Below are positions 4,170 to 38,752 of a stretch of 64,000 bases of DNA, piece after piece. Under the pieces are notes generated by a model. The model did not search any database, was not told where the DNA came from, and saw only the letters and a list, made by a program, of their open reading frames with translations. The translations under genes and the position numbers were made by a program. This DNA comes from Lathyrus oleraceus (taxonomy: Eukaryota; Streptophyta; Magnoliopsida; Fabales; Fabaceae): contig NC_066580.1 of NCBI RefSeq assembly GCF_024323335.1, forward strand, positions 256,408,977 to 256,472,976, given 5' to 3'. Each line of letters starts with the position of its first letter. Within the stretch, counting starts at the first letter, position 1.

Positions 4170-5485
<1,316 letters not shown>

Positions 5486-6801: not shown

Positions 6802-6900
6802 ATTAGGAACTTAATTCCAGAACTTCACCACAAGGGATATGATGAAATTTCACTTTTGTAAAGAAAGTTGAAATTCTCCTCGTATAATCTCTATATGGTA

Positions 6901-7257: not shown

Positions 7258-8887
7258 TGACTGATAGTCTTTAATCGGTGAGCCAAATGGCCAGCCAAGA
7301 CACTACCTTTAATAGCTTTTTGAGATCGGTATTCAATGTCATACTTGGATAACAACACCTGCCAACGGGAAATCCTTCGAGTTAAAGCAGGCTTCTCAAA
7401 AATATACTTGATTTGACCCATCTTGGATATCAACCAAGTAGTATGATTCAACATATACTGGTGCAGACGCTTAACAACCCAAGCCAATGCGCAACAAGTC
7501 TTTTCTAGCATAGAATGCCGAGTCTCACAATCGATGAACTTTTTACTGAGGTAGTAAATAACATATTCTTTCTTTCCAGTTTTGTCTTGATGACCAAGAA
7601 AACAACCCATAATGTCTTCAAGCACAGTCAAATACATGATCAAAGGTCTTCCTTCCATAGGCGGAGCCAGAATTGGAGGCTCAAGCAGATACTCTTTAAT
7701 ACTATCAAAAGCTTTCTGGCAATCTTTGGTCCAATCACAAGACTGATCTTTCCAAAGAATCTTGAATATAGGTGTACACATGGCAGTTATATGTGAAATG
7801 AATCTTGAGATGTAATTCAAGCGGCCAAGAAAACCTCGGACTTGCTTCTCAGTTTTAGGCGCATGCATTTCTTGTATTGCTTTGACCTTGGTAGGATCAA
7901 CTTTAATACCCTTCTCGCTGACAGTAAAGCCCAACAACTTACGAGAACGAACACCAAATGTAAACTTATTAGGATTCAAGTGGAGTTTGTACTTTCTCAA
8001 ATGCTGGAATAGCTTCAACAAATGCTCAACATATTCTTCTTCATCACTGGATTTGGCAATCATGCCATCAACATAAACTTTGATCTCTTTATGCATCATA
8101 TCATGGAAAAGAGTGGTCATTGCTCTCTGGTATGTTGCACCAGCATTCTTTAAACCGAAAGGCATTACTCTATAACAGAATTTTCCCTAGGGTGTAATGA
8201 ATGTGGTCTTCTCCATATCTTCGGGTGCCATCTTGATCTGATTATAACCGGAAAATCCGTCCATAAATGAAAAGACTCTGAATTTAGTTGTATTGTCTAC
8301 CAACATATCAATGTGCGGCAAAGGGAAATCATCTTTTGGACTAGATTTTTTCAAATCTCTATAATTGATACACATGCAGACTTTTCCATCCTTCTTCGAA
8401 ACAGGCGCGATATTGGCTACCCATTGCAGATACTCAGTGGTAACAAGAAAACTAACATCAATTTGGTTTTTCACTTCTTCTTTGATCTTCACTGCCATAT
8501 CAGGGTGAATCCTCCTCAACTTCTGCTTGATTGACCGGCATTCTGGCTTCAACGGCAATCTATGCTCCACAATCTCAGAATCCAAACCAGGCATTTCTTG
8601 ATAGGACCAAACACATCTGAATACTCTTGGAGAAGATCAATCAACCCCTTCTTAACCTCTGGATACAATTGAGACCCAATCTTGACTTCCTTCACATCAT
8701 CCTCTGAACCCAAGTTGACTAGCTCAATCTTCTCTTCAAATGGCTGAATGGCTTTTTCCTCGTGCTTAAGTAGACGAGATATTTCATCAAATGCTGCTTC
8801 ATTAATCTCTTCCTCAGCCTCAAACACAGGGAAATCAAAGTTTGGAGAAGGAGTAGGATCATTGTATTCAATGGGTTTAGACACCAA
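7218..8887 (-). pseudogene. Ogre A reverse transcriptase-RNase H (decayed)
   Basis: Order on the minus strand: acidic pre-RT region (NFDFPVFEAEEE, IELVNLGSEDD), RT fingers and palm (PLKPECRSIKQKLRR; VSKKDGKVCMCINYRDLKK; FPLPHIDMLVD; MDGFSGYNQI), then MPFGLKNAGATYQRAMT, the active site, thumb/connection (VRGFLGRLNYISRF) and RNase H (CCALAWVVKRLHQYMLNHTT). The active site YVDD reads YVDG, removing a catalytic Asp. A frameshift near 8590 and a stop at about 8188 (TPxGKFCYRVMPF) break the frame. It synthesised element cDNA in the cytoplasmic particle. Confidence 0.92.
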
Positions 8888-18000: not shown

Positions 18001-19830
18001 TGGTGAAGAATTGAGGGAGAATCGAAGAGATGAAAAATTTGAAAATTCACCTTTGATGGAGCTTCAGATTGGCACGATCTTGCTTTCAATTATGCTTGGC
18101 CTTGCTTCAGATGCTTGATGGAAGTGAAATAGATCAAGGAAAGGGATGTACTCTTAGAGTTTCAATCTCAAAACAGATGGAGAATTGAAACTCGATTTTC
18201 AAAGAAAATCTTCAAGTTTATCCTTCAATGGTGAGGGTTTGAGGTTGCAGGTTCAAAGCTTGGGCTTGAGGTCCTCAATTATGAGCAATGAGGGTCTTAT
18301 TTATAGGCCATGAGATTGATTTTTGCACACTTCCAAATTTGTTAAATTTTGAAATTCTCCTTTGTATGGTTGCATGGGCATGTGCTAGGCCCATGAGATG
18401 ATGTGATCTGATCCATAGTTGAATGTACACCATGCTGAAATTATGTTAGAAGTCCATGCAAATGTGTGTGAAAAATGGAAGTTGAAATTATCCAAATGGT
18501 CCTCTAACTTACACCCATGCGCAAGTCCATCATACTTTGGCCAAATAAGATGATCTTGTACTTTTTGGAAAGGCGAGATCAAGGGGGACAACTTTCATGC
18601 TGAACACTTTTTCATTTGAAGGTTGGACTATGATGAATTTTGAGGTGGAAGTTTGGGAAATCAAACATATTTGAAAATTTTCCAAGTCCCAAGTCAAATG
18701 TTCACTTCTTCCACCTTGAATAACTTTTTCTATGGACTTCAAAGGAGAAACATTCCTTCATAAAAGTTATATCTCTATCAAACCTATTCAATTTGGTTAC
18801 AAATTTGACCTCATTTGGATTTGGCATGAAGGAGTTATGCATTTTAGAAGTTTAGGAAAATCACTTGTTCAATGGTATTGGCCCAAAATGACCTATAATT
18901 TTTCCTCTTGGCACATGTATTTGAAATCTGAATTTGAACTTAATGCATACATAAAAGTTAAAGTAGACATATTGAATTTGATCATGCAATTTGAATGGAT
19001 TCCATATCATAAAAAATGAGCAAGTTATGGTCTTGGGAAGTTGACCTCCAAACTAGGGTTCAGACAAAATGACCTATAATCTTTCACCATAAAAAATGAC
19101 TTTCCAAGAAAACCTAGCTCTTGAACTAAACATGAAAGTTGTTTTTAATTTCATTTTGAGTAATGTTACTCTTGGAATCATTTTCATATGACAACAATTG
19201 TAGGAGATAGGGTCTAGGGAACCCCTGTTTTGACTAGTTGACTTTCGCTGATCAACCACCATGAACCAACTTGCTAGCTTGACATTCTCTTGACTTTTGG
19301 GACTCATGGAGGGTCATATATGAATAATATGATGTAATGTTAAGTATCCCTTTAAATATTTGATCAATTGTTAAAGAAACTTGTTGAAGAAACTTGTTTA
19401 AGAAATCACACAAGATACCCAGATGAATTAGGGTTTCCAAGGCAAACAAACTCTAAACTCTTGATGATTTCTTGATCAAAATAATAAGTGAAGATCATGT
19501 GCATCCATATATGATGCTTAGAGTCAACGTGAACCATTTCTTGATTGTGCTCCTTGCATCGAGGGCCTTGAACCCTGGATATGAGCTTGATAGAGTATAG
19601 GTGAACACACACACTATCTACAAAAGCAACAAACTATACATTGACATATTTTTGGTATTTTGGTTAGTAAACAAAGAAAAATGAAGTATGATACAATCAA
19701 ATGTGCTTTGTGATCTCTCCCAATGCAAACCCAATGAATGAGGGGTAAGGACGATGCCAAGGTGTGATCCCAATGTCAATGCATATAATGAGATGGCATG
19801 AGGGATCTTAGGGTCAAAATTGGGGTCTTA
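15091..19830 (-). repeat. 5' LTR of Ogre A (about 4.74 kb)
   Basis: In element orientation the LTR begins near 19830 with TAAGACCCCAATTTTGACCC (canonical TG start altered) and ends at 15091 with ATTTACCGCTACA. It is clearly homologous to the plus-strand LTR at 33734-38752: same ends and the same GGTGGCGACT, CCTTTAGAAATA and TCCTAGG-type blocks. A minus-strand TATA box (TATAAATA, 18299-18306) sits about 1.5 kb from the LTR start, which would be U3. Short ORFs in it are chance frames. Confidence 0.9.
18299..18306 (-). promoter_or_regulatory. TATA box of Ogre A LTR
   Basis: Minus-strand CCTATAAATAAGACC, the best TATA match in the LTR, about 1.53 kb from its 5' end. A weaker match (CTTTAAATATG near 35250) lies at the equivalent distance in the Ogre B LTR, which supports the position. 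Confidence 0.5.
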
Positions 19831-21100: not shown

Positions 21101-22866
21101 AAAAGGTGACATAATGCGCATAAAGTATTCCAGAATCCTTGGTATCTTGTCGAATTAGTGATGAAAACATAGTGAAAATGGTGACCGATCCATAATCATA
21201 TACATACTCATACATATACATGCATAAACATAGCATCAGATATTTCATTATGCATTTTTTACACATTGAGTTATTTTTCTGATCCCCTACTTTAGTGATA
21301 TCATTTCCCCATGCAGATTTGGTGTGTCTGTCCTCCTTCAATATAGAGTGTCAACCCTTTAAGCAGAAAGAATTTATCCTTTCTTCTTCCTCACTGAGTT
21401 ATTTCCTTGTGGATACTTATTATTTCTGTTTCCTCCCAGTTCGTTATCTGGATGGAACCACTCCCCTTGAGATGTATCCTCATTAGGTTGAGTCTTGTTT
21501 TATTGTTTCTTTCTAGTTCTTATCTCGATAGATCCTTTGGTCCCCCAAGAGTTGATTACTCAGTAACTGGTAATATCCTTCTTGATGTTGAGTAGTTTAC
21601 CTGTGTTAATTTACCTAGTAACTGGTAAAAGGTAATTTACTTCTTTGACTTCTCCAGTAGATTTGATTTCGTATCCCTAACAAGTTTTTCCTTAATATGT
21701 TCATCTTAACCGATGAGGGATATTCTCCATTTTTGCTCTTCTACCCAGTAACCGTTAGTTGTGAATCCTTATTTCCCAACAATTCTATCCTTGATATGTT
21801 TACCTTAACCGATAACAGATATTCTTTGAGGCGAGTTTATCCTTGATATGTTCACCTTAACCAATGACAAATATTATCTCTTTGGTCTTCTACCTAGTAA
21901 CTGGTAGTTGTAAGTCCTATTTCTTTTTCGTAGTTTATCCTTGATATGTTCACCTTAACCGGTGACAGATATTCTCTCTTTGGTCTTCTACCCAGTAAAC
22001 GGTAGTTGTAAATCCTATTTCTTTTAGGTAGTTTATCCTTGATATGTTCACCTTAACTGGTGACAGATACTCTTCCTTCTGAGTTTATCCTTGATATGTT
22101 CATCTTAACCGATGACAGATATTCTCTCTTCGGTCTTCTACCTAGTAACTGGTAGTTGTAAATACCATTTCTCCCTGACAATCTATCCTTGATATGTTCA
22201 CTTTACCGGGGACAAATATTATTCCTTTTGAGTTTATCCTTGATATGTTCATCTTAATCGGTGACAAATACTCTCTATCTTTGGTATTCTTCCTAGTGAC
22301 TGGTAGTTGTAAATCCTATTTCTTCATTTTTTGCCCAGTAGGATTTTCTTACCCAGTAACCGGTATTGAATATTCCTCATTTTCCTCAGCAAATCATCCT
22401 TGATATGTTTACCTTAACCAATAATGGATGTCCCTCTGCCCGAGTGTATTATCTTACTATCGAATAATAGGTGATAGATAATATATCTCTTTTACTCCTG
22501 TGTTGAAGTTTCTCTTCCCCAGTTAAGTTTAGATTCTTATTTCTTTATGAAATCGAATTTCCTTTTGATTTCTTAGGTATTTCAACTTCGTTCTAATTTA
22601 CGCCTTTCCCTAGTGGATGTTTCTTGTTGTGCTAGTTTTAGCCCGATACATGCAGATTCTTTTTCCTCCAGTCCGAGTCTTTCCATTGATTTATTTTCAT
22701 GGAAATCCCCTCGTGTCTCCAGCAGTTTTTAAGTCGTAGCCTGGCCCACGCATAGCTCTTATCCCCAGAGTCTTTGTCTCCTCAGTGAGTTTTCCTTATG
22801 GAATGCATTATGCTCTTGTGGATCTTTCGGTATCTCTGGATTCTTTTCCTTTGTGGCAATATATTT
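21101..22866 (+). other. 3' UTR of Ogre B (left part)
   Basis: Noncoding plus-strand sequence that continues on the far side of element D at 33579-33733 and runs into the PPT and 3' LTR of Ogre B. Its main content is the tandem repeat at 21555-22430. Small plus-strand ORFs (21295-21595, 22194-22403) run along the repeats and have no recognisable domain. Confidence 0.6.
21555..22430 (+). repeat. Ogre B 3' UTR tandem repeats with stem-loops
   Basis: About ten diverged copies of a CTTGATATGTTCACCTTAAC-type block alternate with about eight copies of a TCTACCCAGTAACTGGTAG-type block. Copy order and spacing are irregular. Each block is a short inverted repeat: TCACC-TTAACC-GGTGA and CTACC-CAGTAACT-GGTAG. 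Tandem repeats in the 3' UTR are known for Ogre-type elements; the paired base changes are discussed under findings. Confidence 0.85.
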
Positions 22867-22871
22867 CCCAC
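22867..22871. repeat. Target site duplication CCCAC, left copy (element D)
   Basis: CCCAC immediately precedes the 5' LTR and is repeated at 33574-33578 directly after the 3' LTR. This is a perfect 5-bp duplication, the size expected for Ty3/gypsy integration. Confidence 0.95.
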
Positions 22872-23009
22872 TGTCATACCCCAAAATTTGCCCATTAATA
22901 TTTCAAGACATTCTTCAAGGCATTCCAACTCATTTTTATGACACTGATCTTAAAGGAACAAAGGCCCAGCTCACGAATGGCCCAATCCAAAAAATGGCCC
23001 AAACTGGCC

Positions 23010-23120
23010 TGTTCGCTACGCGTTCGCTACGCGTTCGCTACCAGCTCGCCTAGCGAACGTTCGCTACCAGCTCGCCTAGCGAACGTTCGCTACACGTTCG
23101 CTACCAGCTTGCCTAGCAAG
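23010..23120 (+). promoter_or_regulatory. Palindromic TTCGCTA cluster upstream of the TATA box
   Basis: Six TTCGCTA motifs, several paired with TAGCGAA to give overlapping perfect inverted repeats: CGTTCGCTA(23032-23040)/TAGCGAACG(23051-23059), and ACGTTCGCTA(23057-23066)/TAGCGAACGT(23077-23086), each with a CCAGCTCGCC loop. It lies 65-175 bp upstream of the TATA box, where enhancer elements are expected. A protein-binding role is inference. Confidence 0.6.
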
Positions 23121-23183
23121 GCTGACAGACAACAAAAAATTTCGGGCTTCGTTCTGAGCCCATTAGGTCATGAAAAAGGGCAT

Positions 23184-23190
23184 TATAAAT
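23184..23190 (+). promoter_or_regulatory. TATA box of element D 5' LTR
   Basis: GGCATTATAAATACCAG. Transcription would begin about 30 bp downstream, near 23215. The same site is present in the 3' LTR near 31868. Confidence 0.7.
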
Positions 23191-23589
23191 ACCAGCACTT
23201 CAGTAATGAAAAAGGGGACGAAAGAAGGAGAGAGGAGAACTCTAGCAAGCAAACCCTAGCGCTCACAGACGGAAAACCCTAAAGGAAACCCTGAAGGAAA
23301 AGCCGGCGGCAGCAAGGTCACTTCCGCTCAATTCCATCCGATCGGCCAACTCAAGGTTACAATTCGATTACAAACAGGTTTGCATTACTATTATCGCTTT
23401 ATTTTCTTAATTTGCATGTGATACCGCTTTATGTTCTTAACTCGCATGTGATATTATAATTGAATTCATAAACATATTTGAGGTTTTGCATGTGAATTTA
23501 AGTGTGCCTGAATATTGTGAATGCTGAACCATGTAATTATGTGTTGAATGCCATAAGCCATGCCGCAAGATTGAAGTCATATTGTTCTG

Positions 23590-23675
23590 AAATTCAAAAC
23601 CCGCAGCCGCTCGCTAGCACATCGCTAAGCGAGCATGTAGCGAGTGTTCGCTAGGCCTTCGCTAGGCGAGGCAGA
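23590..23675 (+). repeat. Second TCGCTA-rich cluster in the LTR
   Basis: Interlaced CGCTCGCTAGC, ATCGCTAAGCGAGC, GTAGCGAGTGTTCGCTAGG and CTTCGCTAGGCGAGG motifs form several small hairpins downstream of the presumed transcription start, so they would also be part of the transcript. Present unchanged in the 3' LTR. Confidence 0.6.
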
Positions 23676-24893
23676 GGCGAACGGGACAGCCATTGATATT
23701 TGTTATGTTCTATGCGTAACCTGATCTATTCTATGTTAATTATGCACTGTTTTGCCTGACATTCATGCTGCTGTATTTTCTTTTTGCGGTGTAATCTTCG
23801 ATTACACCCCGATTTGGTATTCTAACCCGTTTGCTGAATTTTGCAAAGGTTCATATGTCCCAGGAAAAGGTTGTCGTTAGGTCTTCCACTTCATTTGTGG
23901 GATACCCTTGTGGAGACTCACCCTAAGTGGCCTAATTAATTTTAATGTGTTAATTTTAATGTCTTAATTTTAATGTATTAATTTTAATGTATTGATTTTA
24001 GTATGGACTTAATTACTTAATTGACTTTAAAATATGACCTTTAAATAAGTGATCTTGGACCTCTCTTCGCTGCCTTACGGTATTACGGTATAACGGTCAT
24101 GTCCCGCGAATGTGGGGATACACTTAGCAATGGCCCTTCGATTAAATCATCATGTCCCTTTAAAATAAATCATAGTCCCTCGGATGTTGCCTTCGAATAT
24201 ATGATTTTGTCCCTCGATGACCCTTCGGTGTAGCCTACGGTTAAATGATGATAGTCCCTTCGAATGCTAAGGTATCCTTACAACTGTTGCCTTCAATGAC
24301 CTATCGATGACCCTACGGTGACCCTTAAACATCCAAAGGGTAAGATTACTTACTTCTCAATAGTAAGGACAGTTTTACCCTCATAAGGATAGGAAATGCC
24401 CATAACGACCTCAGGAAGGTATAACTCTCAATTACTGGATCATAACCTAAAACATTTTCCACCCCTCACACTTTGCAAATCCTAGAAAATCACCACTTGG
24501 TATACATTCATACTAGAATCATTACCAAGTTATATTTTTCTAAATCATTTTCCAAACTAAACGAGATAACCACTTTGTATACATTCATACGAGAATCATT
24601 ACAAAGTTAAACTCTTTTTTTTCAAACATTTTTTAAATAATTCACCAACACTTTTTCAGACAAAAATATAAGTGATCCAGTAATTAAGAGCCCATGGATA
24701 ACCATGGATACAAAGGGTGCTAACACCTTCCCTTTGTATAATGTACCTCCCGAACCCAAAATCTATTGAGGTCTTTCCTGTTCTTTTCCACCTTTCCTTA
24801 TTGGATAAAAGAAAAGTCGGTGGCGACTCTTGCTATCCGCGACATTGCGATAAAAAGCAAAACACCCCAAGTCAGTTCACCGTATGACAGAAC

Positions 24894-24911
24894 TGGCGAC
24901 TCTGCTGGGGA
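24894..24911 (+). other. Primer binding site of element D
   Basis: TGGCGACTCTGCTGGGGA, four bases after the LTR end and intact. Same class as Ogre A, tRNA-Arg by literature analogy. Confidence 0.93.
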
Positions 24912-25782
24912 CCACTTAAAGAGAGGTTACCTTAATAACAAGATCACATATTCACATTGTCTGATTTACTTTTAAGGGATTGCTTGGGTATTCTTGAGTG
25001 AAAGATCCTACACCCGGATCTAGTGTACCTTAGGTAAGTAGCAATAGATCATCGCGACTATCCGGCGTATACTGGAATGGTTAAAATGATGGCTACGGTT
25101 AATGTGACACTTTGGATGTCCTGATGTTCATCATGTTTACTTGAGGAAAAATTTGGCATCTGCGTGGTGTCATCAAAGCATTAACCAGACCTTTAGAACC
25201 CTAATTGACTCATCCTAGCCATTAGAAAGTAGTGAGATAACTGACTTCGGTTCCGACTGGGGTTGGTTGAGACTCGATACTACACTCTTTGAGATTGGAC
25301 TTTAGGGAAGCTTTGGTCAACCACTTGGTGTTGCACTGAAGTGGACTTAAAGGAAGGTCGATGATCTGAGATCCTTTTAGAACCCGGTTACTATTCTAGG
25401 ACAGGTTGAACCAACTAAACTTCAGTGGGGAGGGTACTTACCTATAGAACTCATGCAAGCCTTAAAACCTAGGAATGATGGTTGTGTGACTTGTTTGTGC
25501 TTGTTATTTATTTAACCTCATAACATCATAACATCATGACATCATAACATTGTACTAACCATTTCAAGGACTTAGGGATTTAACTTTGCTCTGTTTTGTA
25601 TGAAAAAAAAACAAAAAAAAAAAAACAAAAAAAAACAAAAAAAAAGTTTCCCTTTTCGGTAGTTTATGCAAAGTTAAATTCCAAAAGGCCTTGAAAACAT
25701 TTCATGCATTGCATAGCATAACATAGCATAACAGGTACTCTAAAGGGATCAGTGTTCTCACGGTTTTCCTCCACACAGAAAA
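24912..25782 (+). other. Leader of element D
   Basis: About 870 bp between PBS and gag with no ORF1, unlike Ogre A and Ogre C. Contains an A-rich tract with interspersed C (about 25599-25645) and short CATAACATCATGACATCATA repeats near 25520. RNA packaging signals would be expected here, but none can be identified by eye. Confidence 0.65.
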
Positions 25783-26892
25783 ATGGACCTCGAACAAACT
25801 GTCAAGGATCTCCATGCTTAGAATGCTCAACTCCAGGAGATGATCTTGAACTTATCCAGGGGGCAGGAGGAACTGAAAGCTCTCTTGCTCGAGAAAAAGA
25901 AAGACAAGAAAGCTGTGAGTTACATTAACCCGGGAAGAAGGCTTAAAGGACAGGCTGCGGGAATCAAAATCAGAATTCCGAAGGATCAAGAAGAGGAAAC
26001 AGAGACAGATTCAGAAGATGAGAATGCTGATCCTTTCAACCCTGAGGATGACGATGAAGATTACGAGAATGAACAGTACTCTCCAAAAGATGGCAAGTAC
26101 AAGTTGCTGGAAGAACGCATGCTAGCTATGGAAGGTCAGAAGGCGCCCGGTCTGGATTTTGAAAGTTTGGGTCTAGTCTCCGATGTGATCATTCCTCGCA
26201 AATTCAAGGTCCCCGCTTTCACTCAGTATGATGGGGCATCTTGTCCTCAGATGCATCTGAGAGCTTACGTGAGAAAGATTCAGCCGTATACCACTAATAA
26301 GAAGCTCTGGATCCATTTCTTCCAAGAGAGTCTGTCTGGCACACAATTGGAGTGGTATTATCAGCTCGAGAGCTCTGACATCCACACATGGACTGATTTA
26401 GCAACTGCTTTCTATAAACAGTACCAGTATAATTCTGAACTAGCGCCTACTCGGCTACAGTTGCAGAATATGACTATGGGATCTAAAGAAAGTTTCAAAG
26501 AATATGCTCAAAAGTGGAGAGATTTGGCTGGCAGAGTCAAACCCCCTATGACTGATCGAGAATTAGTGGACATGTTCATGAGCACACTGACTGGCCCATT
26601 CTACAACCATCTATTGAGGAGTTCCTCATTGGGTTTCACTGAACTTATATTAACAGGTGAACATGTTGAAAGTGGCATTCGAAGTGGGAAGATACAGGCG
26701 ACTATCTTTGATCCTCCGGAGACTCCTAATGGCATCACTGCCCCTCTGCCTAATCATGACGAGACTGTCAATGCTGTGGAAGATACTGATAACGATTATG
26801 ACTTGGATAGCTGGATTTTCCCAACAATTGGTGACGGACCCAATAATTGGAAGGCTGAAGACACTATCCCGATTTCCTTTAGTCGGGAGTAA
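25783..26892 (+). pseudogene. Element D gag, shortened, one early stop
   Basis: ATG at 25783 starts MDLEQTVKDLHA, then TAG at 25819-25821 (one base from CAG), then an open frame to 26892. Translation could restart at Met 25840 (350 codons). Contents: coiled-coil start, very acidic linker (DQEEETETDSEDENADPF), then the Gag core with GLVSDVIIPRKFKVP, SLSGTQLEWYYQLE, WTDLATAFYKQYQYNSELAP and SFKEYAQKWRDLAGRV. The frame jumps from HVESGIRSGKIQ and a short link straight to DSWIFPTIGDGPNNWKAEDT. Compared with Ogre A, the Cys/His region and protease are absent, so an internal deletion is inferred. Confidence 0.88.
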
Positions 26893-27100
26893 TTGTTATT
26901 GCTGTTTTAACATTTTAAAGCATTGTGTCTATACCCGGGGCATAATAGCTAATTTTTAAGGGTTTGTCATTTTCATAAGCATATTCATATTCAATAAATC
27001 AATGGACTTTTTGCATTCAAATATTGCGCTCTTTATCTTTCCTGTCGTTTTTCAAATAAGCTATGTTTTCTTGCACACACTCACGTAACAATTTGCCGAC
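26889..27100 (+). other. Candidate intron start and spacer between gag and pol remnant
   Basis: The gag frame ends ...SFSRE with a TAA lying inside the donor-like A/GTAATT at 26889, the same arrangement as in Ogre A (9143). An AT-rich stretch with stops in all frames follows to about 27100, where the pre-RT reading frame begins. The acceptor is not resolved. Confidence 0.4.
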
Positions 27101-28385
27101 CCATATCCACTCTGGATCCTGTTGGTAATGACTCTGCTACTGTTCATTATGACTTTGAAAATCCGATCTACCAAGCCGAGGATGGAAGTGAGGAAGATTG
27201 TGAAGTCCCTAGAGAACTTGCCAGACTGGTACTACAAGAAGAAAAGACCATACAGCCGCATGAGGAATCAATTGAAATTGTAAATCTGGGTACTGAAATA
27301 GACAAGAAAGAAGTCAGAGGTTTTCTTGGGACACTTGAATTACATTGCCCGATTCATTCCACACTTGACTACTACCTGCAAACCCATCTTCAAATTACTA
27401 AAAAGGAAAAATCAAGAGATGGTATGGAATGATGAATAACAAAATCAGGAAATATCTCCAAGAATCTCCCATCCTGATGCTACCAGTGGAAGGAAGACCT
27501 CTAGCTATGTATCTGACCGTGTTAGAAAATTCAATAGGGTGTGCTGGGGCAACATGACGAGTCGGGTCGAAAAGAGCATGCCATATACCGCCTTAGCAAA
27601 AGGTACCGACTGTGAAACAAGATACTCACAGCTCGAGAAAGCTTGCTGTGCTTTGGCTTGGGCTGCTCGCCGACTAAGACAGTATATGTTGAATCATACC
27701 ACTTTATTGACTTCTAAGATGGATTCTATCAAATACCTATTTGAGAAACCTGTTGTTCCCTGAAAGAGTTATCACTGATAATGGTACTAAACTGAACTCG
27801 GCATGCAGTTCAAAATAAAACACCATAACTCTTCTCCGTACCGGCCAAAGACGAACGGCGCCATGGAGGCTGCTAACAATATCAAGAATATAACAGTAAC
27901 ATACAAAGACTGGCATGAGATGTTACCTTTTGCTCTTCATGGTTACCGCACTTCGACAGGGGCAACTCCGTTCTCTTTAGTCTATGGAAGGGAAGCCATC
28001 TTACCAGTGGAAGTTCAGATTCCCTCTCTAAGAATCATGAAAGAGGCGGGCTTAGATGAAGAGGAACGGATTCAGACTCGACTCGATCAGATAAATTTGA
28101 TTGAAGAGACTCGCGGCTATATGTCATGGGCAGATATATCAGAAGCGCATGACCCAGGCATTCAACAAAAAGGTCAAGAGACGAGTGTACCAAATCGGCG
28201 ACTTAGTTATCAAGCATATCATTCTACCACAAGGTGATCCCAGGGGCAAATGGACTCCCACACACGAAGGGCCATTCGTAGTTAAGAAGGTATTCTCTGG
28301 TGGAGCCATGATGCTTGCTACAATGGATGGCGAAGAGTTCCCGCATCCTGTGAACGCTGACATAGTTAAAAAATACTACGCATAA
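27101..28385 (+). pseudogene. Element D pol remnant with large internal deletions
   Basis: Pieces in order: acidic pre-RT region (VHYDFENPIYQAEDG, EESIEIVNLGTE); then, directly fused at 27310, the RT thumb (RGFLG, NYIARFIPH); a short RNase H piece (CCALAWAARRLRQYMLNHTT); IKYLFEKPVV fused at about 27750 to the second integrase Asp region (ERVITDNGTKLN); then the integrase C-terminus (HHNSSPYRPKTNGAMEAANN, FSLVYGREAILPVEVQIPSL) ending HPVNADIVKKYYA with TAA at 28383-28385. The RT active site, the zinc-binding domain and the first integrase Asp are gone, and the frame shifts several times. It cannot encode a working polymerase or integrase. Confidence 0.9.
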
Positions 28386-29555
28386 AAGAGACCCGCTAGG
28401 TCGACGTACCTAGGAAAAAGTAAGGGCATCCCGGCGAACCAAAAGGGTTCGGGCAAAAGATAGGGATAAACATATACAAACATACACCCGGCAAGTCGAA
28501 AACCTGAAAAGGCGGCTTGAGCAAAAAAGGGTATCCCGGTGGACTGAAAACCTGAAAAGGCGGTCCAGGAAAAAATTAGGGATTAAAAACGTATGACTAT
28601 GCCCCGTTCTCTGTCTGCTTCAACCAAGTTCAAGGGACTGAACCAGCCAATCACTTCTATCCGACAGCAGGAGATGAGATGCTTGAAGACATAATGACAG
28701 TGGTGGAATTAGAATCGATAGGACTTTTTCTGCATAGCTTTCTCTTTGTTTGCCTGACAATTTCCTCTTACTAGGATTTCTGTCTCCTTGTACTCAAATT
28801 GCCTATGTATAGGCCCTCTTTCAAAATCAATACCATTTCATTTCCAAAAAGATGCTTTTGTTTTACTTTCTCTGTTTTGTTTGCGTAAACGTCCATTGAT
28901 TTAACTTGAATTGATTTATGCATTTGAATATGATCAATGTTTATCAAAATACATGCATAAAATAACAATGACAATTACTAAAGGACTTCAGGATCGAGGA
29001 GAAGGTCTAACCAGGCTTTCCAATGAATCTGTTGCCAATTCTATTCCCCGGCTAAGCCAGTTATGCCCCAGAAGAACTTGGCATCACTAGACTGGTCATC
29101 TCTTCTACCCCAGCCAGGCTCTGTTGAATATCTCTGCCATCAGATAAAGGTCAAATACCCCTAGCTAAGGAAGGGTCATCAATACAAATATCTCCGACCA
29201 GAAGACTGAGATTTATTTCCCCAGTAGAGTCCCCTGGAAGAACGTTTCAGACACATAGTGCATTCATTACATCATTTCACATCACATACCTACATACAAT
29301 TTTCGTTCCGCATCATATACATTACATCATTTCATAACATATACATGTATACAATGCTCTCATTCATTCCAGACGCATAATTCACTCATTACATCATTTC
29401 ACAGCATACGCATGCATACAACATTTGCATCTCATGCATCATGACATGGCATGAAGCTAACTTTATTTTTCAGGTCAATTATCCTCCTGACATAGTCAAA
29501 ACAAAGGTCCATTCAGACGGACATCTTTATCAATTACTTTCAAGATTCAACTATA
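28386..29555 (+). other. Element D 3' UTR, proximal part
   Basis: Noncoding. Holds two GAAAACCTGAAAAGGCGG blocks (28497-28565) and three diverged copies of a CATTCATTACATCATTTCAC unit about 70-90 bp apart (29258-29410). The TTACATCATTTCA core varies little between copies. Nothing coding is supported. Confidence 0.7.
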
Positions 29556-29559
29556 TCCC

Positions 29560-30180
29560 TCAGATACTGCCTAGCGTACGGTATATTCCGAGGTGTAGTC
29601 TAGTGTACGACTACTTTCTTCTTCAGATACATCTTTCAGATATACTCCATGTCAACATTCAGTCAGACATCCTCCTAACGATGGCCTCTATAAGCTCATC
29701 CCAAATATGCATTGCAAATACAGCATACACAAATACTATCAGATATAGCCTAGCGTACGGTTCATTCTGATTCAGCCCAACATGTAACTCCTTCCACTCA
29801 GATACGATCTAACGGACGATTCATTCTGATCTTCAACTACTCCCAACACGGTCTACTGTACGACCCAGTTGGACCTTCACTTCTCAGGTACTGCCTAGCA
29901 TACGGTCCATCCTGATGCATCTCAACATATGACTCCTTCAACTCAGATACGATCTAGCGTACGATCCATTCTGACCTTCAATAACTCAAAGACAGTCTAA
30001 TGTACGACCAAGTTAGACCTTCAAATCTTCAAATACCACTCAAATACAGTCTAATGTACGACCAAGTTAGACCTTCAAGTCAGATTCTGCAAATACAGTC
30101 TAATGTACGACCAAGTTAGACCGTCAAGTCCTCGGACAACTCAGATAAGGTTTAATGTACGACCAAGTTAGACCTTTATC
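29560..30180 (+). repeat. Diverged stem-loop repeats, proximal series
   Basis: At least eleven units built on one plan: outer arm, a short spacer, inner arm, 8-nt loop of TAGCGTAC/TAATGTAC type, inner arm complement, spacer, outer arm complement. Examples: TCAGA..GATC-TAGCGTAC-GATC..TCTGA (29943-29974), CCAAC..GGTC-TACTGTAC-GACC..GTTGG (29843-29872), TCAGG..GCC-TAGCATAC-GGT..CCTGA (29884-29915). Arms differ between units but mostly remain complementary. Confidence 0.85.
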
Positions 30181-31140
30181 TCCTCAGATGCTACCTTCGG
30201 ACAGGTACATTCCTGAATGGTAGTCTGGTATACGGCTACTCCCTTGCTCAGGTGCTACCTTCGGACAGGTACATTCCTGAATGGTAGTCGGGTATACGGC
30301 TACTCCCTTGCTCAGGTGCTACCTTCGGACAGGTACATTCCTGAATGGTAGTCTGGTATACGGCTACTCCCTTGCTCAGGTGCTACCTTCGGACAGGTAC
30401 ATTCCTGAACGGTAGTCTAGTATACGACTACTCCCTTGCTCAGGTGCTACCTTCGGACAGGTACATTCCTGAATGGTAGTCTGGTATACGGCTACTCCCT
30501 TGCTCAGGTGCTACCTTCGGACAGGTACATTCCTGAATGGTAGTCTAGTATACGACTACTCCCTTGCTCAGGTGCTACCTTCGGACAGGTACATTCCTGA
30601 ATGGTAGTCTAGTATACGACTACTCCCTTGCTCAGGTGCTACCTTCGGACAGGTACATTCCTGAATGGTAGTCTAGTATACGACTACTCCCTTGCTCAGG
30701 TGCTACCTTCGGACAGGTACATTCCTGAATGGTAGTCTAGTATACGACTACTCCCTTGCTCAGGTGCTACCGTCGGACCGGTACATTCCTGAATGGTAGT
30801 CTAGTATACGACTACTCCCTTGCTCAGGTGCTACCTTCGGACAGGTACATTCCTGAATGGTAGTCTGGTATACGGCTACTCCCTTGCTCAGGTGCTACCT
30901 TCGGACAGGTACATTCCTGAATGGTAGTCTAGTATACGGCTACTCCCTTGCTCAGGTGCTACCTTCGGACAGGTACATTCCTGAATGGTAGTCTAGTATA
31001 CGACTACTCCCTTGCTCAGGTGCTACCTTCGGACAGGTACATTCCTGAATGGTAGTCTGGTATACGGCTACTCCCTTGCTCAGATGCTACCTTCAGACAG
31101 GTACATTTCTGAATGGTAGTGTAGTATACGACTACTCCCT
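30181..31140 (+). repeat. 64-bp tandem array, 15 units
   Basis: CTACC of the unit occurs at 30191 and every 64 bp to 31087 (15 units, nearly exact period). Each unit has stem-loop A (TCAGG-TGC-TACCT-TCGGAC-AGGTA-CATT-CCTGA, nested arms) and stem-loop B (GTAGTC-TAGTATAC-GACTAC or GTAGTC-TGGTATAC-GGCTAC). Six units are the G/G form of B, eight A/A, one mixed. Tandem 3' UTR repeats of Ogre-type elements are known as possible sources of satellite DNA. Confidence 0.97.
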
Positions 31141-31400
31141 TTTCAGCAGATTCAGCCTAACGGACGGCTCATTCTGCTCAGATATGGTTTAATGTACGAC
31201 CAAGTTAAACTTTCATCTCTTCAGATGCTACCTTCGGACAGGTACATTTCTGATCCCTCATCCCCAGCAGTATATAGCACACGCTGACTCCCCAGCGAAG
31301 GCAACAGCAGGATGGATGATTCATTATACGGTCTAGAGTATGACCCGGTATGACATCCATGTCTTCAGACATCGTCTAATGTACGACACCATCGGAAGCT
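31141..31400 (+). repeat. Diverged stem-loop repeats, distal series
   Basis: After the array the older unit types return: CAGA..AGCC-TAACGGAC-GGCT..TCTG (31147-31176), GTTTAA...TTAAAC (31187-31210), another TCAGA..TACCTTCGGACAGGTA..TCTGA unit (31220-31254), GGTC-TAGAGTAT-GACC (31330-31345) and GTC-TAATGTAC-GAC (31374-31387). The array is thus flanked on both sides by related but older copies. Confidence 0.8.
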
Positions 31401-31555
31401 CGTCATCAAACTTCCTGGATGGCATCTCTAAGCCCATCCCCATCAAGACTAATGGACAGGCGCAAATTTTTGGGGCATTCTAGTGTTCAATAATCTTTCA
31501 CCTCCAGACCACGAACGGCACATACCATTCTACTCTCTCGGTTCAAGAATATTGA

Positions 31556-31566
31556 ACAGGGGCAGC
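31556..31566 (+). other. Polypurine tract of element D
   Basis: GAACAGGGGCAGC directly before the TGTCATACC start of the 3' LTR. It is short for a PPT but in the required position. Confidence 0.6.
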
Positions 31567-33573
31567 TGTCATACCCCAAAATTTGCCCATTAATATTTCA
31601 AGACATTCTTCAAGGCATTCCAACTCATTTTTATGACACTGATATTAAAGGAACAAAGGCCCAGCTCACGAATGGCCCAATCCAAAAAATGGCCCAAACT
31701 GGCCTGTTCGCTACGCGTTCGCTACCAGCTCGCCTAGCGAACGTTCGCTACCAGCTCGCCTAGCGAACGTTCGCTACACGTTCGCTACCAGCTCGCCTAG
31801 CAAGGCTGACAGACAACAAAAAATTTCGGGCTTCGTTCTGAGCCCATTAGGTCATGAAAAAGGGCATTATAAATACCAGCACTTCAGTAATGAAAAAGGG
31901 GACGAAAGAAGGAGAGAGGAGAACTCTAGCAAGCAAACCCTAGCGCTCACAGACGGAAAACCCTAAAGGAAACCCTGAAGGAAAAGCCGGCGGCAGCAAG
32001 GTCACTTCCGCTCAATTCCATCCGATCGGCCAACTCAAGGTTACAATTCGATTACAAACAGGTTTGCATTACTATTATCGCTTTATTTTCTTAATTTGCA
32101 TGTGATACCGCTTTATGTTCTTAACTCGCATGTGATATTATAATTGAATTCATAAACATATTTGAGGTTTTGCATGTGAATTTAAGTGTGCCTGAATATT
32201 GTGAATGCTGAACCATGTAATTATGTGTTGAATGCCATAAGCCATGCCGCAGGATTGAAGTCATATTGTTCTGAAATTCAAAACCCGCAGCCGCTCGCTA
32301 GCACATCGCTAAGCGAGCATGTAGCGAGTGTTCGCTAGGCCTTCGCTAGGCGAGGCAGAGGCGAACGGGACAGCCATTGATATTTGTTATGTTCTATGCG
32401 TAACCTGATCTATTCTATGTTAATTATGCACTGTTTTGCCTGACATTCATGCTGCTGTATTTTCTTTTTGCGGTGTAATCTTCGATTACACCCCGATTTG
32501 GTATTCTAACCCGTTTGCTGAATTTTGCAAAGGTTCATATGTCCCAGGAAAAGGTTGTCGTTAGGTCTTCCACTTCATTTGTGGGATACCCTTGTGGAGA
32601 CTCACCCTAAGTGGCCTAATTAATTTTAATGTGTTAATTTTAATGTCTTAATTTTAATGTATTAATTTTAATGTATTGATTTTAGTATGGACTTAATTAC
32701 TTAATTGACTTTAAAATATGACCTTTAAATAAGTGATCTTGGACCTCTCTTCGCTGCCTTACGGTATTACGGTATAACGGTCATGTCCCGCGAATGTGGG
32801 GATACACTTAGCAATGGCCCTTCGATTAAATCATCATGTCCCTTTAAAATAAATCATAGTCCCTCGGATGTTGCCTTCGAATATATGATTTTGTCCCTCG
32901 ATGACCCTTCGGTGTAGCCTACGGTTAAATGATGATAGTCCCTTCGAATGCTAAGGTATCCTTACAACTGTTGCCTTCAATGACCTATCGATGACCCTAC
33001 GGTGACCCTTAAACATCCAAAGGGTAAGATTACTTACTTCTCAATAGTAAGGACAGTTTTACCCTCATAAGGATAGGAAATGCCCATAACGACCTCAGGA
33101 AGGTATAACTCTCAATTACTGGATCATAACCTAAAACATTTTCCACCCCTCACACTTTGCAAATCCTAGAAAATCACCACTTGGTATACATTCATACTAG
33201 AATCATTACCAAGTTATATTTTTCTAAATCATTTTCCAAACTAAACGAGATAACCACTTTGTATACATTCATACGAGAATCATTACAAAGTTAAACTCTT
33301 TTTTTTCAAACATTTTTTAAATAATTCACCAACACTTTTTCAGACAAAAATATAAGTGATCCAGTAATTAAGAGCCCATGGATAACCATGGATACAAAGG
33401 GTGCTAACACCTTCCCTTTGTATAATGTACCTCCCGAACCCAAAATCTATTGAGGTCTTTCCTGTTCTTTTCCACCTTTCCTTATTGGATAAAAGAAAAG
33501 TCGGTGGCGACTCTTGCTATCCGCGACATTGCGATAAAAAGCAAAACACCCCAAGTCAGTTCACCGTATGACA
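31567..33573 (+). repeat. 3' LTR of element D (2007 bp)
   Basis: Same ends as the 5' LTR. The 11-bp length difference is accounted for by one GTTCGCTACGC unit. Substitutions seen by eye: C/A near 31645, T/C near 31796, A/G near 32252 (positions in this copy). It is followed by the CCCAC duplication. Confidence 0.97.
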
Positions 33574-33733
33574 CCCACAAATATTATTTTTGCATTCATA
33601 TCATATTCATCATGAGGTCTCTTAGGGACCAAAATTTGTTTCTTGGTGTTGTTATTTAAGTCCATTTTACCGTGTTGATATGAATATTTTAACCTTCACA
33701 TCCCCAGATAGAATAACCTTAAATAGGGGAAGT
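33574..33733 (+). other. 3' UTR end and PPT of Ogre B
   Basis: 33574-33578 is the right CCCAC copy. The rest continues the Ogre B 3' UTR from 22866 and ends in the purine-rich AAATAGGGGAAG (33721-33732), the likely PPT, touching the 3' LTR. Confidence 0.75.
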
Positions 33734-36700
33734 TGTAAGACCCCAATTTTGACCCCTAAGATCCTTCATGCCATCTCATTAACATGGCATTAGCATTGGG
33801 ATCACACCTTGGTATCCTCCTCACCTATCATTCATTAGGTTGCATTAGGAGAGATCACCAAGAATTTGTGATTGTATCATACTTTATTTTCTTTGTTTTA
33901 CTAACCAAAATCCAAAAATATATCTAGTGTAGTTTTATTTCTTTTGTAGGAAGTGCGTGCATCCACCTGTGCCTCTTCAAGATCACAACTAGGGTTTGAT
34001 ACCCTCAATGCAAGACATCCAATTATAAAAGGTATACATTGGTTCAAATCATCATATATGGATCCCCATGTTATTTATTTGTCATTTTGATCAAGAATTC
34101 ATCAAGAGTTTGAAGCTTGTTTGTCAAGGAATCCCTAATTTATCTGGCTATCTTGCGTGCTTTCTTCAACAAGTTTCTTCAACATTTGGTCAAAGATATC
34201 AAAGTATACCCCATTATACTTCATCATAAGCATATATAATCCTACATGATCTTCCAAGATCAAAGTAACTTCAAGTTTGCAAGTTGGTCCAAGGAGGTTG
34301 ACTAGAAAAGTCAACTGGTCAAATCTAGGGTTCCCTATACCCTATCTCCTAAACTTTTTCTCAAATGAAAATGATTCCAAGAGAAACGTTACTCTTTATG
34401 ACATTACAAACAACTTTAATGTTGGAATCATGATCTAATTTTGCTTGTAGAGTCATTTTTTATGGTGAAAGCTTATAGGTCATTTTGTTTGTGCCCTAGA
34501 TAGAGGGTCAACTTCCATGAATATTAAGTTCCTCAATTTTTATGATATGAAGATAATATGAGTTGAATGATTAAATTAAAGATGTCTTCTTCAAATTTTT
34601 TTCTTTGATAAAGATAAAATTCCACTTTCAAGGTCCTGTGCCATGAGGAAACATTATAGGTCCATTTGGGTCATCATCATTGAACAAGCAATTTTCCTCA
34701 ACTTCTAAAATCCATAACTCTATCATGCAAGGTCCAAATGGTGTCAAATTTGTAACCAAATTGAAGATAATTGAAATTGATACAACTTTGAAGAAGGAAC
34801 CAAAGTCATTTGAAGCTCATAGAAAAATTTATTCAAGGTGGAAAAAGGTGTCATTTGACTTTTAACTTAGAAAATTTTCAAGTATGTTTGATTCCTACAA
34901 CTTGAAGGACATAATTCATCATGATCCAAGCTTTAAATGGAAAAAGCCCCAACATAAAAGTTGTTCTCCTTAATGGTATCTTTCCAAATAGTCCAAAATC
35001 ATTGCATTTGTATCAAAATTGATGGACTTTCACATGGTTCCTTTGCATATCCCAATTTTGCAACTTTTGCACTCAAATGTTAAACTTCTTTGCATGTTTC
35101 CATGTTATGATCTCAGCATCAATTGTGCATGAATTTAGACTTATCGCAATCATCATTTGGGCCTAAGCACATGCCCATGCACCCATGCATACAACTTGCT
35201 ATTTTTGGCCAAATTTTCAAATGGTGTGGAGATGAATTCATGAGCCTTTAAATATGTTACCATTGCATCAGAATTGGAGGAGAACATTGCCCAAGCTCTG
35301 CCCAACAACCCCATAACCTCCATTGAAAGAACAACTTGAAGATTTATTTGAAATCTAGTTTTTAGTTCAAATTATGTTTGTCTAAGGGTTCACATCCTTT
35401 TTCATCTCAATCATCTCCTACAAGCAAGAGGAAGGAAGGCCAAGTGTAATTGCATCGAGATCTAGCTCAAAATTCATCACCCAAAGGTGAAATTTCTCAA
35501 ACTTTCCTTCTTCGATTCTCACTCATTTCTCAACCTTTTTGCTTGATTTTTGCTTGGCTGAAGTCCTACCAATATAGGCAATAAGATTGAGTTGCTTTGA
35601 GGATTAATCGAAGCAACTCAGTTAGGAAACCTCAATTTTTAACTCCACATATCTTTTTATAGAGTGAGAGTTGGAGAAATTGGAGGTCATATTCGAGATC
35701 CTTATGATTATCTCTTAAAAATAGTATATGATCCATTAATTTTGGTGATGCTTTGGTCCTGACCAGTCTGATGACATGGCCGGAGAAGATGAATGGAGCT
35801 AGGGCTCCGGTGGTGTGCTGGCATTGTCTAGGCCATCTGATCCTTGGTCCACGTTCTAATCTGAGCCATCCATCCTGATTACCATTGGTACTTGCGCATT
35901 TACTTTGGTCTATGGTGGACATAAACACGTGGCCATTAGATTTGCCACCTTAATTAATCAGGGAGATTTGATGGCCCTTGTTTTATTTATTTATTTATTT
36001 TTCTATTTTAATTTTTAAAATACCATTTTCTCATTTAATTCACTATAAATTCAATTTTAATCAAAATAATATGGGACTTTCACCAATATTTCACAAATGA
36101 TTTCCTCTTCCATTTTCTGAATTAAAATTATTTTTTGGATTAAGTTTGATATTTTTAGTGAATTTTGTGATTTTTGACTTGTTTTTAATTGATTTTAAAT
36201 ACTTCTAACTTTCAAAAATTCCCAAAAAAATTAGTCAATGGTCCTTTGACCTTATTTGACCTATGATAAATCCCTTGGCAATTTCTTTGGTGATTTGAAG
36301 AGATTTTAGGTTTTTCCCCTTTTAAAAATTATTTTTATTCATTTAAAATATGAATTTAATTTGTTTAATTATTTTAAAAATTGTGTTGAGCTAGTTGATT
36401 TAATTTGTGTTGACTCAACTTCTGTTTGGCCTTGATATTGGTTGAATTGGACTTCAACTTGATCAATACTATTGGATTTAGGTGTTGATGAAGTTTGAAA
36501 TTCATCCTTCAAGATGAATGGATAGTATTGATCAAGTGAGGCTCATCCCTTGATCAATTTGGGATTCTCTTTAACTTCATCTCTTCATATTCATCTAATT
36601 TCTTCCCAATCTATCCATGGCCAGTGACTTCTCATAGGATCAAAATATCAGCTGATTCATCAATGACCTTGTGTCAGATGAATCAAGATGGGTTTGATTG

Positions 36701-38752
36701 AGATAGGTACGTCCCATTTTATTTTTGTGTTTGGTATGCTTTAGGATCTTGGTTCTTTATACCTTATCTCTAGCATGCATTAACACCGATATCATTAATG
36801 CCCGATCTCAGATAGTTGTGACTTCTACATAAGTCCAATTACGATTGCTTAACATAGAGCTAAATTTGTCCCGAAAGCAATAGCATTTTTTAAGTGAGAT
36901 TGTAAGTCTCCCATTCCTCATGGTATTGTGTGAAGATTTTATTTATTTTCCATTTATGAGAGTTAGTGGCATACTTATTGATTTCATCGAAGTTGGAGCC
37001 CTTCTCATGAATGTTGTCTAGGTTCATATCTCCATGCTTATGAGTGAATGGTTGAGTATTCTCCAAAAAATGACTTGAATAATTTCTTCTTCCACTAACA
37101 TTCACTAAAATTTCCTTTAATTGACTTTATTTTTAATGCCATTTACCTTAATGCAATTTAAATTCTTGCACTTTATCATTCATTGTCATTTACATTCATG
37201 CAAGTTATTTATGTTTCAGTCATTTTCACTTTTGTCACTTGAGCCATTGTATTTGTGCTTGTGATATATCTTTGTGTTTGTGACTTTGTTTGTTTTATGG
37301 TCTTAGGACCTTAAAATAATTAATAACAAAAAAAACCCTAAAAAAAATTGGTGGACTGTTGGACCTCTGTCTGAGACTTAAGTTGACCTTTTGGACTTAG
37401 AGTATGCAACATCCTTGAGCTATGGAAGAACTTGGCCAATGCCATTAATTTGTTTCCTAGCCAATGTCATTCATCTAATACAAGCCTTGAGAGAATCCTT
37501 TGATTTATCTGTTATACTCACTCTCTCTTTGTCTGATTTGTTATTTTGATCATATTGATATCATCTGATGTTTCTCTTTGAGTATGTTTTAAGGGATATT
37601 TCATCTGATACATCTAAAAGACATTGAAGACTGCTTGCTTTCGAGTGCTTTCTTGGATGTTTGGTTATATTTATTTGATACCATTTGGTCTTCTCATTAA
37701 TTTCTTGGATGATTATGCTTGTTGCTTGCTTAACAATCCAAAGGATATGGGTTTCTATCAGACATTATTGTCTTGTGGATGCTTCCCATTGGTTCGATCT
37801 TTTCAAATCTAAACTTTTAAATATTGTCTAGGATAGTCCCTTCATCTCCTCTTCTCCTTCTTTAATTTCAAAATCTCTCCCTCATTTTCAAAAACTTTCT
37901 TTGTTTGTGTTTTCAACTTAGACTTGTTTTAATGAGTTGAATTTTTTTGTCTTATGCCATTGATTTTCAAAATATTTTCTTAATCAAACTTATAAATGAA
38001 CTTAATCATATTGACCTTAATTTCAAAAAATACAAAAAGAATTACAACCGCATCTAATCCTTTTGGCCATTTTATGCCTTTTTATTTTAAACTTTTCAAA
38101 AGAGAGCATTTAGATTTAAGTTATCTTTGGTTGAGATATAATTCTCCCATGCCATGATATATTGATTGCAAGTCTTTCCATTTATTAGGGGTTAGTGACA
38201 TACTTGTTGATTGAATCCAAGTTGGATCCCTCCTTCTTAAATTTTGTAAAGCACTCATTATCGGTGGTTGTTTGGTTGAGTATTCTCCCATTGATAACAA
38301 AATATCATTAAGCTTTTGTTAAGAATTAATCCACCAATCTTTGAAATTTTTACCACGAACTACGAGGTTTTGATCCCTCATTTTTATGTTGGTGCGTAGG
38401 CATAAGACCGAAGGTCTTGTCAAACACAAAAACATAATTAATGAATTCTTTTCTCATCTCTCCACTCTATTTATTGCAAACATCTTTTGTACAAAAATAC
38501 ATATGCACACAAAAAAGGGCTCCCTGGGAGTACCTAGGACACTTTGGATGCTAATACCTTCCCTTTGTTTAACCAACCCCCTTACCTGTAATCTCTAACA
38601 TTTTATTAGTTTTGATTTGTAAACTTTTTATCTTTGGGTTTCGTTCGTACTTTTTCTCTTTTCCTTTAGAAATAGTAAAAGCGCGGTGGCGACTATGGTT
38701 TTATTGACGTTGAGTTAACCAATATCTCAATGGTCATGAATTTACCGCTACA
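33734..38752 (+). repeat. 3' LTR of Ogre B (about 5.0 kb)
   Basis: Starts TGTAAGACCCCAATTTTGAC and ends GAATTTACCGCTACA, so termini are TG...CA. It is an inverted, diverged homologue of 15091-19830: shared blocks include the CTAGTTGACTTT-like region near the start, the CACATGCCCATGC block and the GGTGGCGACT block near the end. The 5-bp flank TCCCG (38753-38757) is one half of the target duplication; the other half is not visible. ORFs inside (34680, 35632, 36890, 37624) are chance frames. Confidence 0.92.

Follow-up and report, generated by a model that had tools for sequence, protein, structure and literature searches.

Legume genomes are very rich in Ogre elements, and we know of no accepted purpose for the tandem repeats in their 3' UTRs. 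The question is raised again by one such element in a stretch of 64,000 nucleotides of the Lathyrus oleraceus genome (contig NC_066580.1, positions 256,408,977 to 256,472,976 of the forward strand; hereafter the window): are its repeats hairpins that selection keeps paired? A preliminary description of this DNA had reported nested stem-loops of one architecture throughout the 3' UTR, with arms that differ between units and still pair, and had suggested that they may be a covarying RNA or cruciform structure. The nested stem-loops are confirmed over 29560-31396. The interpretation is partly supported, as set out below.

The element and its parts are as follows.

22872-33573, plus strand: whole element, a young Ogre-type LTR retrotransposon with gag kept and pol broken
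22872-24889, plus strand: 5' LTR, with TSD CCCAC at 22867-22871 and 99.3% identity to the 3' LTR
24894, plus strand: putative PBS, starting TGG, just 3' of the 5' LTR
25822-26892, plus strand: gag frame (PF03732, E 3.4e-14)
27440-28385, plus strand: broken RNase H and pol-end remnants (PF17917 in 27440-27760)
31558-31566, plus strand: polypurine-type tract AGGGGCAGC, read directly, adjoining the 3' LTR
31567-33573, plus strand: 3' LTR, with TSD CCCAC at 33574-33578

Between the two LTRs, about 2.0 kb long, we counted 3 mismatches and one 11-bp gap, in keeping with the earlier description of the element as young, although the window copy's pol is broken. A 5-bp TSD on either side, a PBS just after the 5' LTR and a PPT before the 3' LTR are present; these are general traits of LTR elements, and the AGGGGCAGC tract is presumably the PPT. 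The two later frames of 27440-28385 had no Pfam match, and 28201-28400 was 91-96% identical to relatives in the 9 stretches, of 20, that contain that part. Both LTRs also carry a 26-bp tandem repeat of 2.4 copies with inverted-repeat character (23032-23093 and 31716-31777).

The Ogre-type assignment was borne out by a relative. Tandem repeats in the 3' UTR are present in the window element itself, and an additional RNase H (aRH) between RH and integrase is present in the relative L076, which lies upstream of locus L013; that part is lost from the window copy. L076 has PF17917 at 466-568 and PF13456 at 633-750 in one frame and the integrase in the next, with separate frames matching gag, protease (just under the Pfam cut-off), RT with RNase H and the second RNase H, and integrase. 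According to the available part of PMC6317226, a second RNase H placed after RH and before integrase is characteristic of Ogre and Retand elements, and the gap between the two Ogre coding frames averages 274 bp, with an intron in pea Ogre. The L076 stop-to-stop frames (1070-2611 and 2709-5138) are separated by 97 bp. Taken together, the LTR identity, the broken pol pieces and the RNase H order of L076 show that the window copy belongs to an Ogre-type family, is young and has lost an unbroken pol.

A further relative, L075 (upstream of L009), aligned with window 24889-28148 over a single piece of 3,277 bp, 92.6% identical, and L009/L075 thus has the same reduced layout of gag plus broken pol. 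Because this layout occurs at two loci, the reduced form has apparently multiplied as a non-autonomous subfamily. The hairpin train is present both in L013/L076, which has all pol domains, and in the reduced-pol copies (the window and L009/L075).

In the train, a typical unit is built around an 8-nt loop, with an inner stem of 3-4 bp, a symmetrical unpaired 3x3 spacer and an outer stem of 5 bp. All the arms and coordinates given in the preliminary description were present in the sequence. The units, with the array that lies among them, are:

29560-29591, plus strand: nested hairpin TCAGA..TGCC-TAGCGTAC-GGTA..TCCGA, outer stem with one mismatch
29595-29614, plus strand: simple hairpin GTAGTC-TAGTGTAC-GACTAC
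29739-29770, plus strand: nested hairpin TCAGA..AGCC-TAGCGTAC-GGTT..TCTGA
29798-29829, plus strand: nested hairpin TCAGA..GATC-TAACGGAC-GATT..TCTGA
29843-29872, plus strand: nested hairpin CCAAC..GGTC-TACTGTAC-GACC..GTTGG
29884-29915, plus strand: nested hairpin TCAGG..GCC-TAGCATAC-GGT..CCTGA
29943-29974, plus strand: nested hairpin TCAGA..GATC-TAGCGTAC-GATC..TCTGA
29995-30173, plus strand: four TAATGTAC-class units with loops at 29998, 30052, 30101 and 30153, inner 3-4 bp retained and outer stem interrupted
30183-31141, plus strand: array of 15 copies of 64 bp, each with two hairpins
31146-31177, plus strand: nested hairpin GCAGA..AGCC-TAACGGAC-GGCT..TCTGC
31187-31210, plus strand: TAATGTAC-class unit GGTT-TAATGTAC-GACC (loop 31190)
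31365-31396, plus strand: last hairpin before the LTR, TCAGA..GTC-TAATGTAC-GAC..TCGGA

The 8-nt loops of the nested units start at 29572, 29751, 29810, 29854, 29896, 29955 and 31158. By a fixed rule, 29541-31565 contained 41 units on the plus strand and 13 on the minus strand, and five other parts of the window contained 0 to 2 plus-strand units each. The unit at 29943-29974, the top match in the window of model R1 (which was built from this same hairpin family), was predicted to fold into exactly the typical architecture (-8.9 kcal/mol), and the unit at 31146-31177 into the same fold plus one extra outer pair (-14.1 kcal/mol). Within the array, hairpin 1 is TCAGG..ACC-TTCGGACA-GGT..CCTGA and hairpin 2 is GTAGTC-TAGTATAC-GACTAC or variants of it. 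The last hairpin has in many relatives the outer arms CCAGA, TCAGA or CTAGA with TCTGG.

We also considered other identities for this DNA. A coding region was rejected, since neither strand has a stop-to-stop frame of at least 90 aa inside 29771-31648; a 129-aa frame at 29381-29770 does run into the first hairpin units. A known Rfam family was rejected as well: cmscan of 22000-34500 at E<=1 returned one match, outside the train, with 28.7 bits against a gathering score of 125. For 29730-30030 there was no plasmid match. Kissing loops were set aside since GTAC or GTATAC occurs in many loops and is absent from TAACGGAC and TAATGGAC, and a hammerhead core was considered and set aside.

The claim of one architecture throughout holds for most unit classes, but not for all. 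Among the 14 non-array units, the outer stem is broken by one mismatch at 29572, 29998, 30052, 30153 and 31377 and by two or more at 30101 and 31190; the unit at 29601 has a 6-bp inner stem only. The TAATGTAC class combines an interrupted outer stem with a competing alternative one. For the units at 29998, 30052, 30101 and 30153, the predicted best fold is this alternative stem, GUYUAA/UUARAC. Over 171 distinct units of the class, the five pairs of the outer stem were standard in 87, 99, 16, 91 and 67%, and each of the six positions of the alternative stem in 90-98%, a figure partly imposed by the letters that select the class, which include part of that stem. At one position of the alternative stem C-G, U-G and U-A all occur.

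The train is not peculiar to this copy. A first-look search of the genome (3.795 Gb, 1,550 contigs) yielded 4,208 candidate loci of the family. We took 36 stretches around array matches and 30 around pre-array matches, dropping the window's own copy and omitting L001-L008 and L045, which overlap other loci or the window; with the window this made 66. Thus, 65 more stretches of the genome carry similar hairpin units. Each of the 66 has 17 to 73 units (median 38), and by the same rule they hold 2,585 units on the sense strand and 695 on the reverse strand. The order of the hairpin classes, compared by eye in stretches other than six that had been read in the wrong orientation, is broadly similar, with local expansions of particular classes; L040 is an example of departure from the common order.

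From these stretches we drew several sets of units. A set of 128 representatives was reduced to 113 by dropping, before the tests, 15 that clustered apart by sequence, and these 113 unit types were chosen by loop sequence and mutual similarity alone. From 981 candidate 36-mers, 478 were retained by sequence similarity; a separate selection with a wider loop rule retained 544. A 47-unit alignment, A1, had been picked for paired arms, so its 92% pairing was not used as evidence. Loop conservation outside the loop-blind scan described below is partly imposed by the search motif.

Across the 113 distinct unit types, inner pairs 1-4 were standard in 113, 111, 109 and 82, and outer pairs 8-12 in 88, 94, 55, 99 and 75. 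All four inner pairs were standard in 14 inner-arm combinations, among them GATC/GATC, AGCC/GGTT, AGCC/GGCT, GGTC/GACC, GGTC/GATC and TACC/GGTA; the outer arms include TCAGA/TCTGA, GCAGA/TCTGC, TCCAA/TTGGA, CCAGA/TCTGG and TCGGA/TCCGA.

A scan of the 66 stretches that ignores loop sequence required only an inner stem of four pairs, an outer stem of five and three spacer positions between them. It returned 112 distinct nested hairpins whose loop was 8 nt long, versus 27 in one copy shuffled in 60-nt blocks; the reverse strand gave 105. The loop fitted TA[AGC][CT][GA][TG]AC in 76 of the 112, and most of the others were close to it. Among the other loop lengths from 4 to 12 only six was enriched (57 versus 20), and the array hairpin probably accounts for this. 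Folding energies pointed the same way for single units: the mean z was -1.84 for the 14 non-array 40-mers (antisense -1.59) versus +0.16 for 76 control 40-mers of the element. With 150-nt windows the train's sense z ranged only between -0.2 and -2.4, and the antisense strand of the array scored lower than its sense strand (-1.2 to -3.6).

We set covariation against unit ancestry with two tree nulls: the first moves substitutions among columns along the tree in the style of R-scape, and the second preserves the change count of every column; this phylogeny-aware test is our own implementation and not R-scape itself. The sum over the nine stem pairs was reached by 0 of 600 simulations under each null, in both unit sets (144 units, and the 100 units seen at least 3 times). 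In the 144-unit set, pairs -4/+4 and -2/+2 ranked 1 and 2 of 630 column pairs. Tested over all pairs, their E-values under the two nulls were 0.17 and 0.08 for -4/+4 and 0.44 and 0.20 for -2/+2; none of the 630 pairs had E<0.05 (best 0.08-0.17). In a test of the stem alone both pairs had E 0.001-0.006, and none of the other seven stem pairs was significant. In the 100-unit set, a non-stem pair (+9/+13) came first, -2/+2 second and -4/+4 fourth, with stem-only E 0.02-0.03. The preliminary description had named as support several pairs with E below 0.05 against a phylogeny-aware null: 2 of 9 reach that level in the restricted test, but 0 of 630 in the unrestricted one.

The first 113 units gave a similar ranking (-2/+2 first and -4/+4 third of 780 column pairs) and allowed compensated double changes to be counted. 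Inner pairs had 3 such changes versus 0.38 expected, a number reached in 1 of 200 tree simulations, and outer pairs 4 versus 0.80 expected, reached in 3 of 200. In the same run, 14 of 200 simulations did as well as the observed inner pairing taken by itself, and pair breaks were no rarer than under the tree null (12 versus 12.4 and 43 versus 39). Thus, covariation beyond unit ancestry is found for the stem as a whole, from the simulations, the double changes and the comparison of shared with private changes that follows, but not for individual pairs over all column pairs.

To compare older with younger changes, we called a change private when it occurred in one stretch and shared when it occurred in at least three, after dropping nine near-duplicates of the 66 stretches. 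Private changes served as the neutral yardstick, which assumes that most of them postdate insertion. At inner pairs 1-3, private changes kept or broke pairing in a ratio of 23:32 and shared changes in a ratio of 14:2 (p=0.0015). At outer pairs 8, 9, 11 and 12 the ratios were 18:41 and 30:24 (p=0.008), and for the nine pairs together 51:88 and 48:38 (p=0.0058). Six slid controls were all non-significant (p 0.16 to 1), and random re-pairings of the same columns reached the odds ratio in 8 of 200 trials. With the near-duplicates left in, the inner pairs gave p=0.0013, but the outer pairs were not significant (p=0.46). The ratio of shared to private changes was 0.31 in inner columns 1-3, 1.10 in the spacer and 1.59 in the flank. 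The array had variation of its own: pair 5/29 of hairpin 1 was G-C in 637 copies (51 stretches), A-T in 239 (49 stretches), A-C in 17 and G-T in 13, while the other seven pairs had rare variants only, A-C or a mismatch more often than G-T. One pair of hairpin 2 was either T·G (685 copies) or T-A (292).

Could such a pattern arise without selection on pairing? If one ancestral palindromic unit was duplicated and then diverged, leftover pairing would simply be inherited. The units are visibly homologous and tandemly duplicated, the independent double events are few, the E-values over all pairs are not significant and breaks are as common as under the null, all of which such descent would lead one to expect. 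It would not lead one to expect that the whole stem and the double changes exceed the tree nulls, that shared changes keep pairing more than private ones do, or that inner columns selectively lose shared changes, and we regard ancestry as quite unlikely to be the whole account. Hairpins might also be a by-product of repeat growth, stalling reverse transcriptase and favouring strand transfer, so that units with hairpins get duplicated. This process predicts neither a single loop motif across units with different arms nor fixed mismatches in the spacer; different elements do show tandem expansion of different hairpin classes, yet as the origin of the train we find it improbable.

A separate question is whether the dyads matter in RNA or in DNA. 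They might act in DNA or single-stranded cDNA, as a cruciform or as a site for an integrase or recombinase, or template-switch correction during reverse transcription might itself compensate changes. Watson-Crick pairs do predominate, and the antisense strand folds as well as the sense strand or better; for single units, the two strands fold about equally well. Counted as change events, G·T and A·C did not differ significantly (68:71 overall; 27:19 shared and 39:45 private, p=0.20). By contrast, the standing counts at inner pairs 1-3 of 478 distinct units, 146 G·U versus 25 A·C cells, favour sense RNA, though few events lie behind these cells. Correction of palindromes ought to act on the 3x3 spacer too, yet the spacer stays mismatched (of 250 nested units, C·C in 150, A·A in 183, T·T in 124), which argues against a purely mutational origin by such correction. 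We consider a DNA-level explanation unlikely, and selection on the RNA more probable.

On balance, then, we think it somewhat more probable than not that in this Ogre family the 3' UTR consists of hairpins set in a train and kept paired by selection on the genomic RNA, with protein binding for export or packaging as its presumed use. New units would arise via tandem duplication; selection would keep the small hairpins paired while the arms drift in compensated steps and the 8-nt loop and unpaired 3x3 spacer mostly keep their sequence. The many copies, the conserved loop and internal loop and the free arm sequence suggest multivalent protein binding: one protein, encoded by the element (Gag or another) or by the host, may read loop and spacer, and the many copies would lend avidity. 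The likeliest step is recognition of the full-length RNA, perhaps for packaging or for nuclear export of a transcript that still holds its intron. Splicing of pea Ogre transcripts is incomplete (available part of PMC6317226, which cites Neumann 2003 and Steinbauerova 2008), so the unspliced RNA has to be exported from the nucleus and packaged. A cis-acting role would fit the retention of gag, LTRs and the train in copies whose pol is broken. If the repeats are selected hairpins, the 3' UTR is a structured RNA whose binding partner can be tested for, broken-pol copies have a reason to keep it, and satellites derived from Ogre 3' UTRs begin as hairpins.

A second family in the window bears on how general this may be. 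A pol-like fragment at 5483-6092 on the minus strand is 64% identical to this element's pol and belongs to another Ogre-like family, to which the pol-like fragments over 5483-7849 on that strand also belong. First-look candidates numbered 12,342 for this family versus 4,208 for the first, a rough comparison only, as the queries differed. The repeats in its 3' UTR (L077-L082) are different ones, about 99 bp long; model R1 had no match in L077 and L078, and in 3300-5600, downstream of the pol fragments, there was no hairpin train of the first type (by eye, and no R1 match). These repeats contain 8-nt-loop hairpins of their own, with the loop YAGTAACY and arms CTACC/GGTAG, TTACC/GGTAA and CTATC/GATAG, and a longer-loop motif was also listed. 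Among 40 distinct candidates, one pair was C-G 15 times and T-A 13 times, and pairing equalled the highest value of 500 shuffles, or fell one short of it, at offsets 2, 5, 6 and 8 of eight and not at the others. With pairing statistics this weak, at four of eight offsets, we treat these hairpins as a lead.

Tandem repeats of the same second-family kind (as in L077 and L078) lie at 21674-22325, just upstream of the 5' LTR, and include 8-nt-loop hairpins of the form CTACC-YAGTAACT-GGTAG; the element probably sits inside a second-family fragment or next to one. Long similar stretches in inverted orientation flank the element (15091-19830 and 33736-38752, 71% and 87% identity). Direct long repeats further along (53141-54920/59089-60868 and 48568-49947/61302-62643, 96% and 87% identity) are possibly LTRs of other elements.

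The second-family hairpins are the basis of a wider and more tentative reading, which we hold possible rather than probable: the "hypervariable" 3' UTRs of Ogre elements may be a modular, fast-evolving RNA recognition device, made of 8-nt-loop hairpin trains whose loop word and arms are specific to the family (TARYRKAC here, YAGTAACY in the second family) and co-evolve with each family's protein. If true, the device would be a plant counterpart of retroviral export and packaging elements, and would explain why Ogre 3'-UTR repeats are kept and seed satellites.

Hypervariable tandem repeats in the 3' UTR of Tat/Ogre elements are known (Macas et al. 2009, via the available part of PMC7004042). 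Like the units described here, these repeats and the Gmr9/GmOgre minisatellites (available parts of PMC7004042 and PMC3305785) lie between pol and the 3' LTR, have units of tens of bases and vary between elements and families. Unlike them, they are treated in those parts as minisatellites or as a source of satellites; the comparison is one of descriptions. In the available text of PMC3305785 and PMC7004042, the terms hairpin, secondary structure, palindrom- and inverted repeat have 0 occurrences. We found no account of conserved hairpins in Ogre 3' UTRs in the literature searched, which did not include Macas et al. 2009; such hairpins are likely new, the tandem repeats themselves being already known.

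The nearest functional parallels come from retroelements whose RNA is marked for export by a bound protein, as with the Rev response element (available part of PMC4488727) and the CERV export protein of Cer1 (available part of PMC10309623). The likeness would be one of function, and the cognate protein of the Ogre train is putative. Retroviruses also export RNA via RRE or CTE stem-loops (available part of PMC7551171, also for what follows). The CTE of MPMV is a single stem-loop of 150-175 nt bound by NXF1, whereas the plant train consists of many short hairpins with another loop and a presumed export role. Like the train, the MPMV CTE and the MLV element, which has a conserved stem-loop sequence, act in cis on the intron-containing RNA of a retroelement, as stem-loops that carry either two internal loops or a conserved word in the loop.
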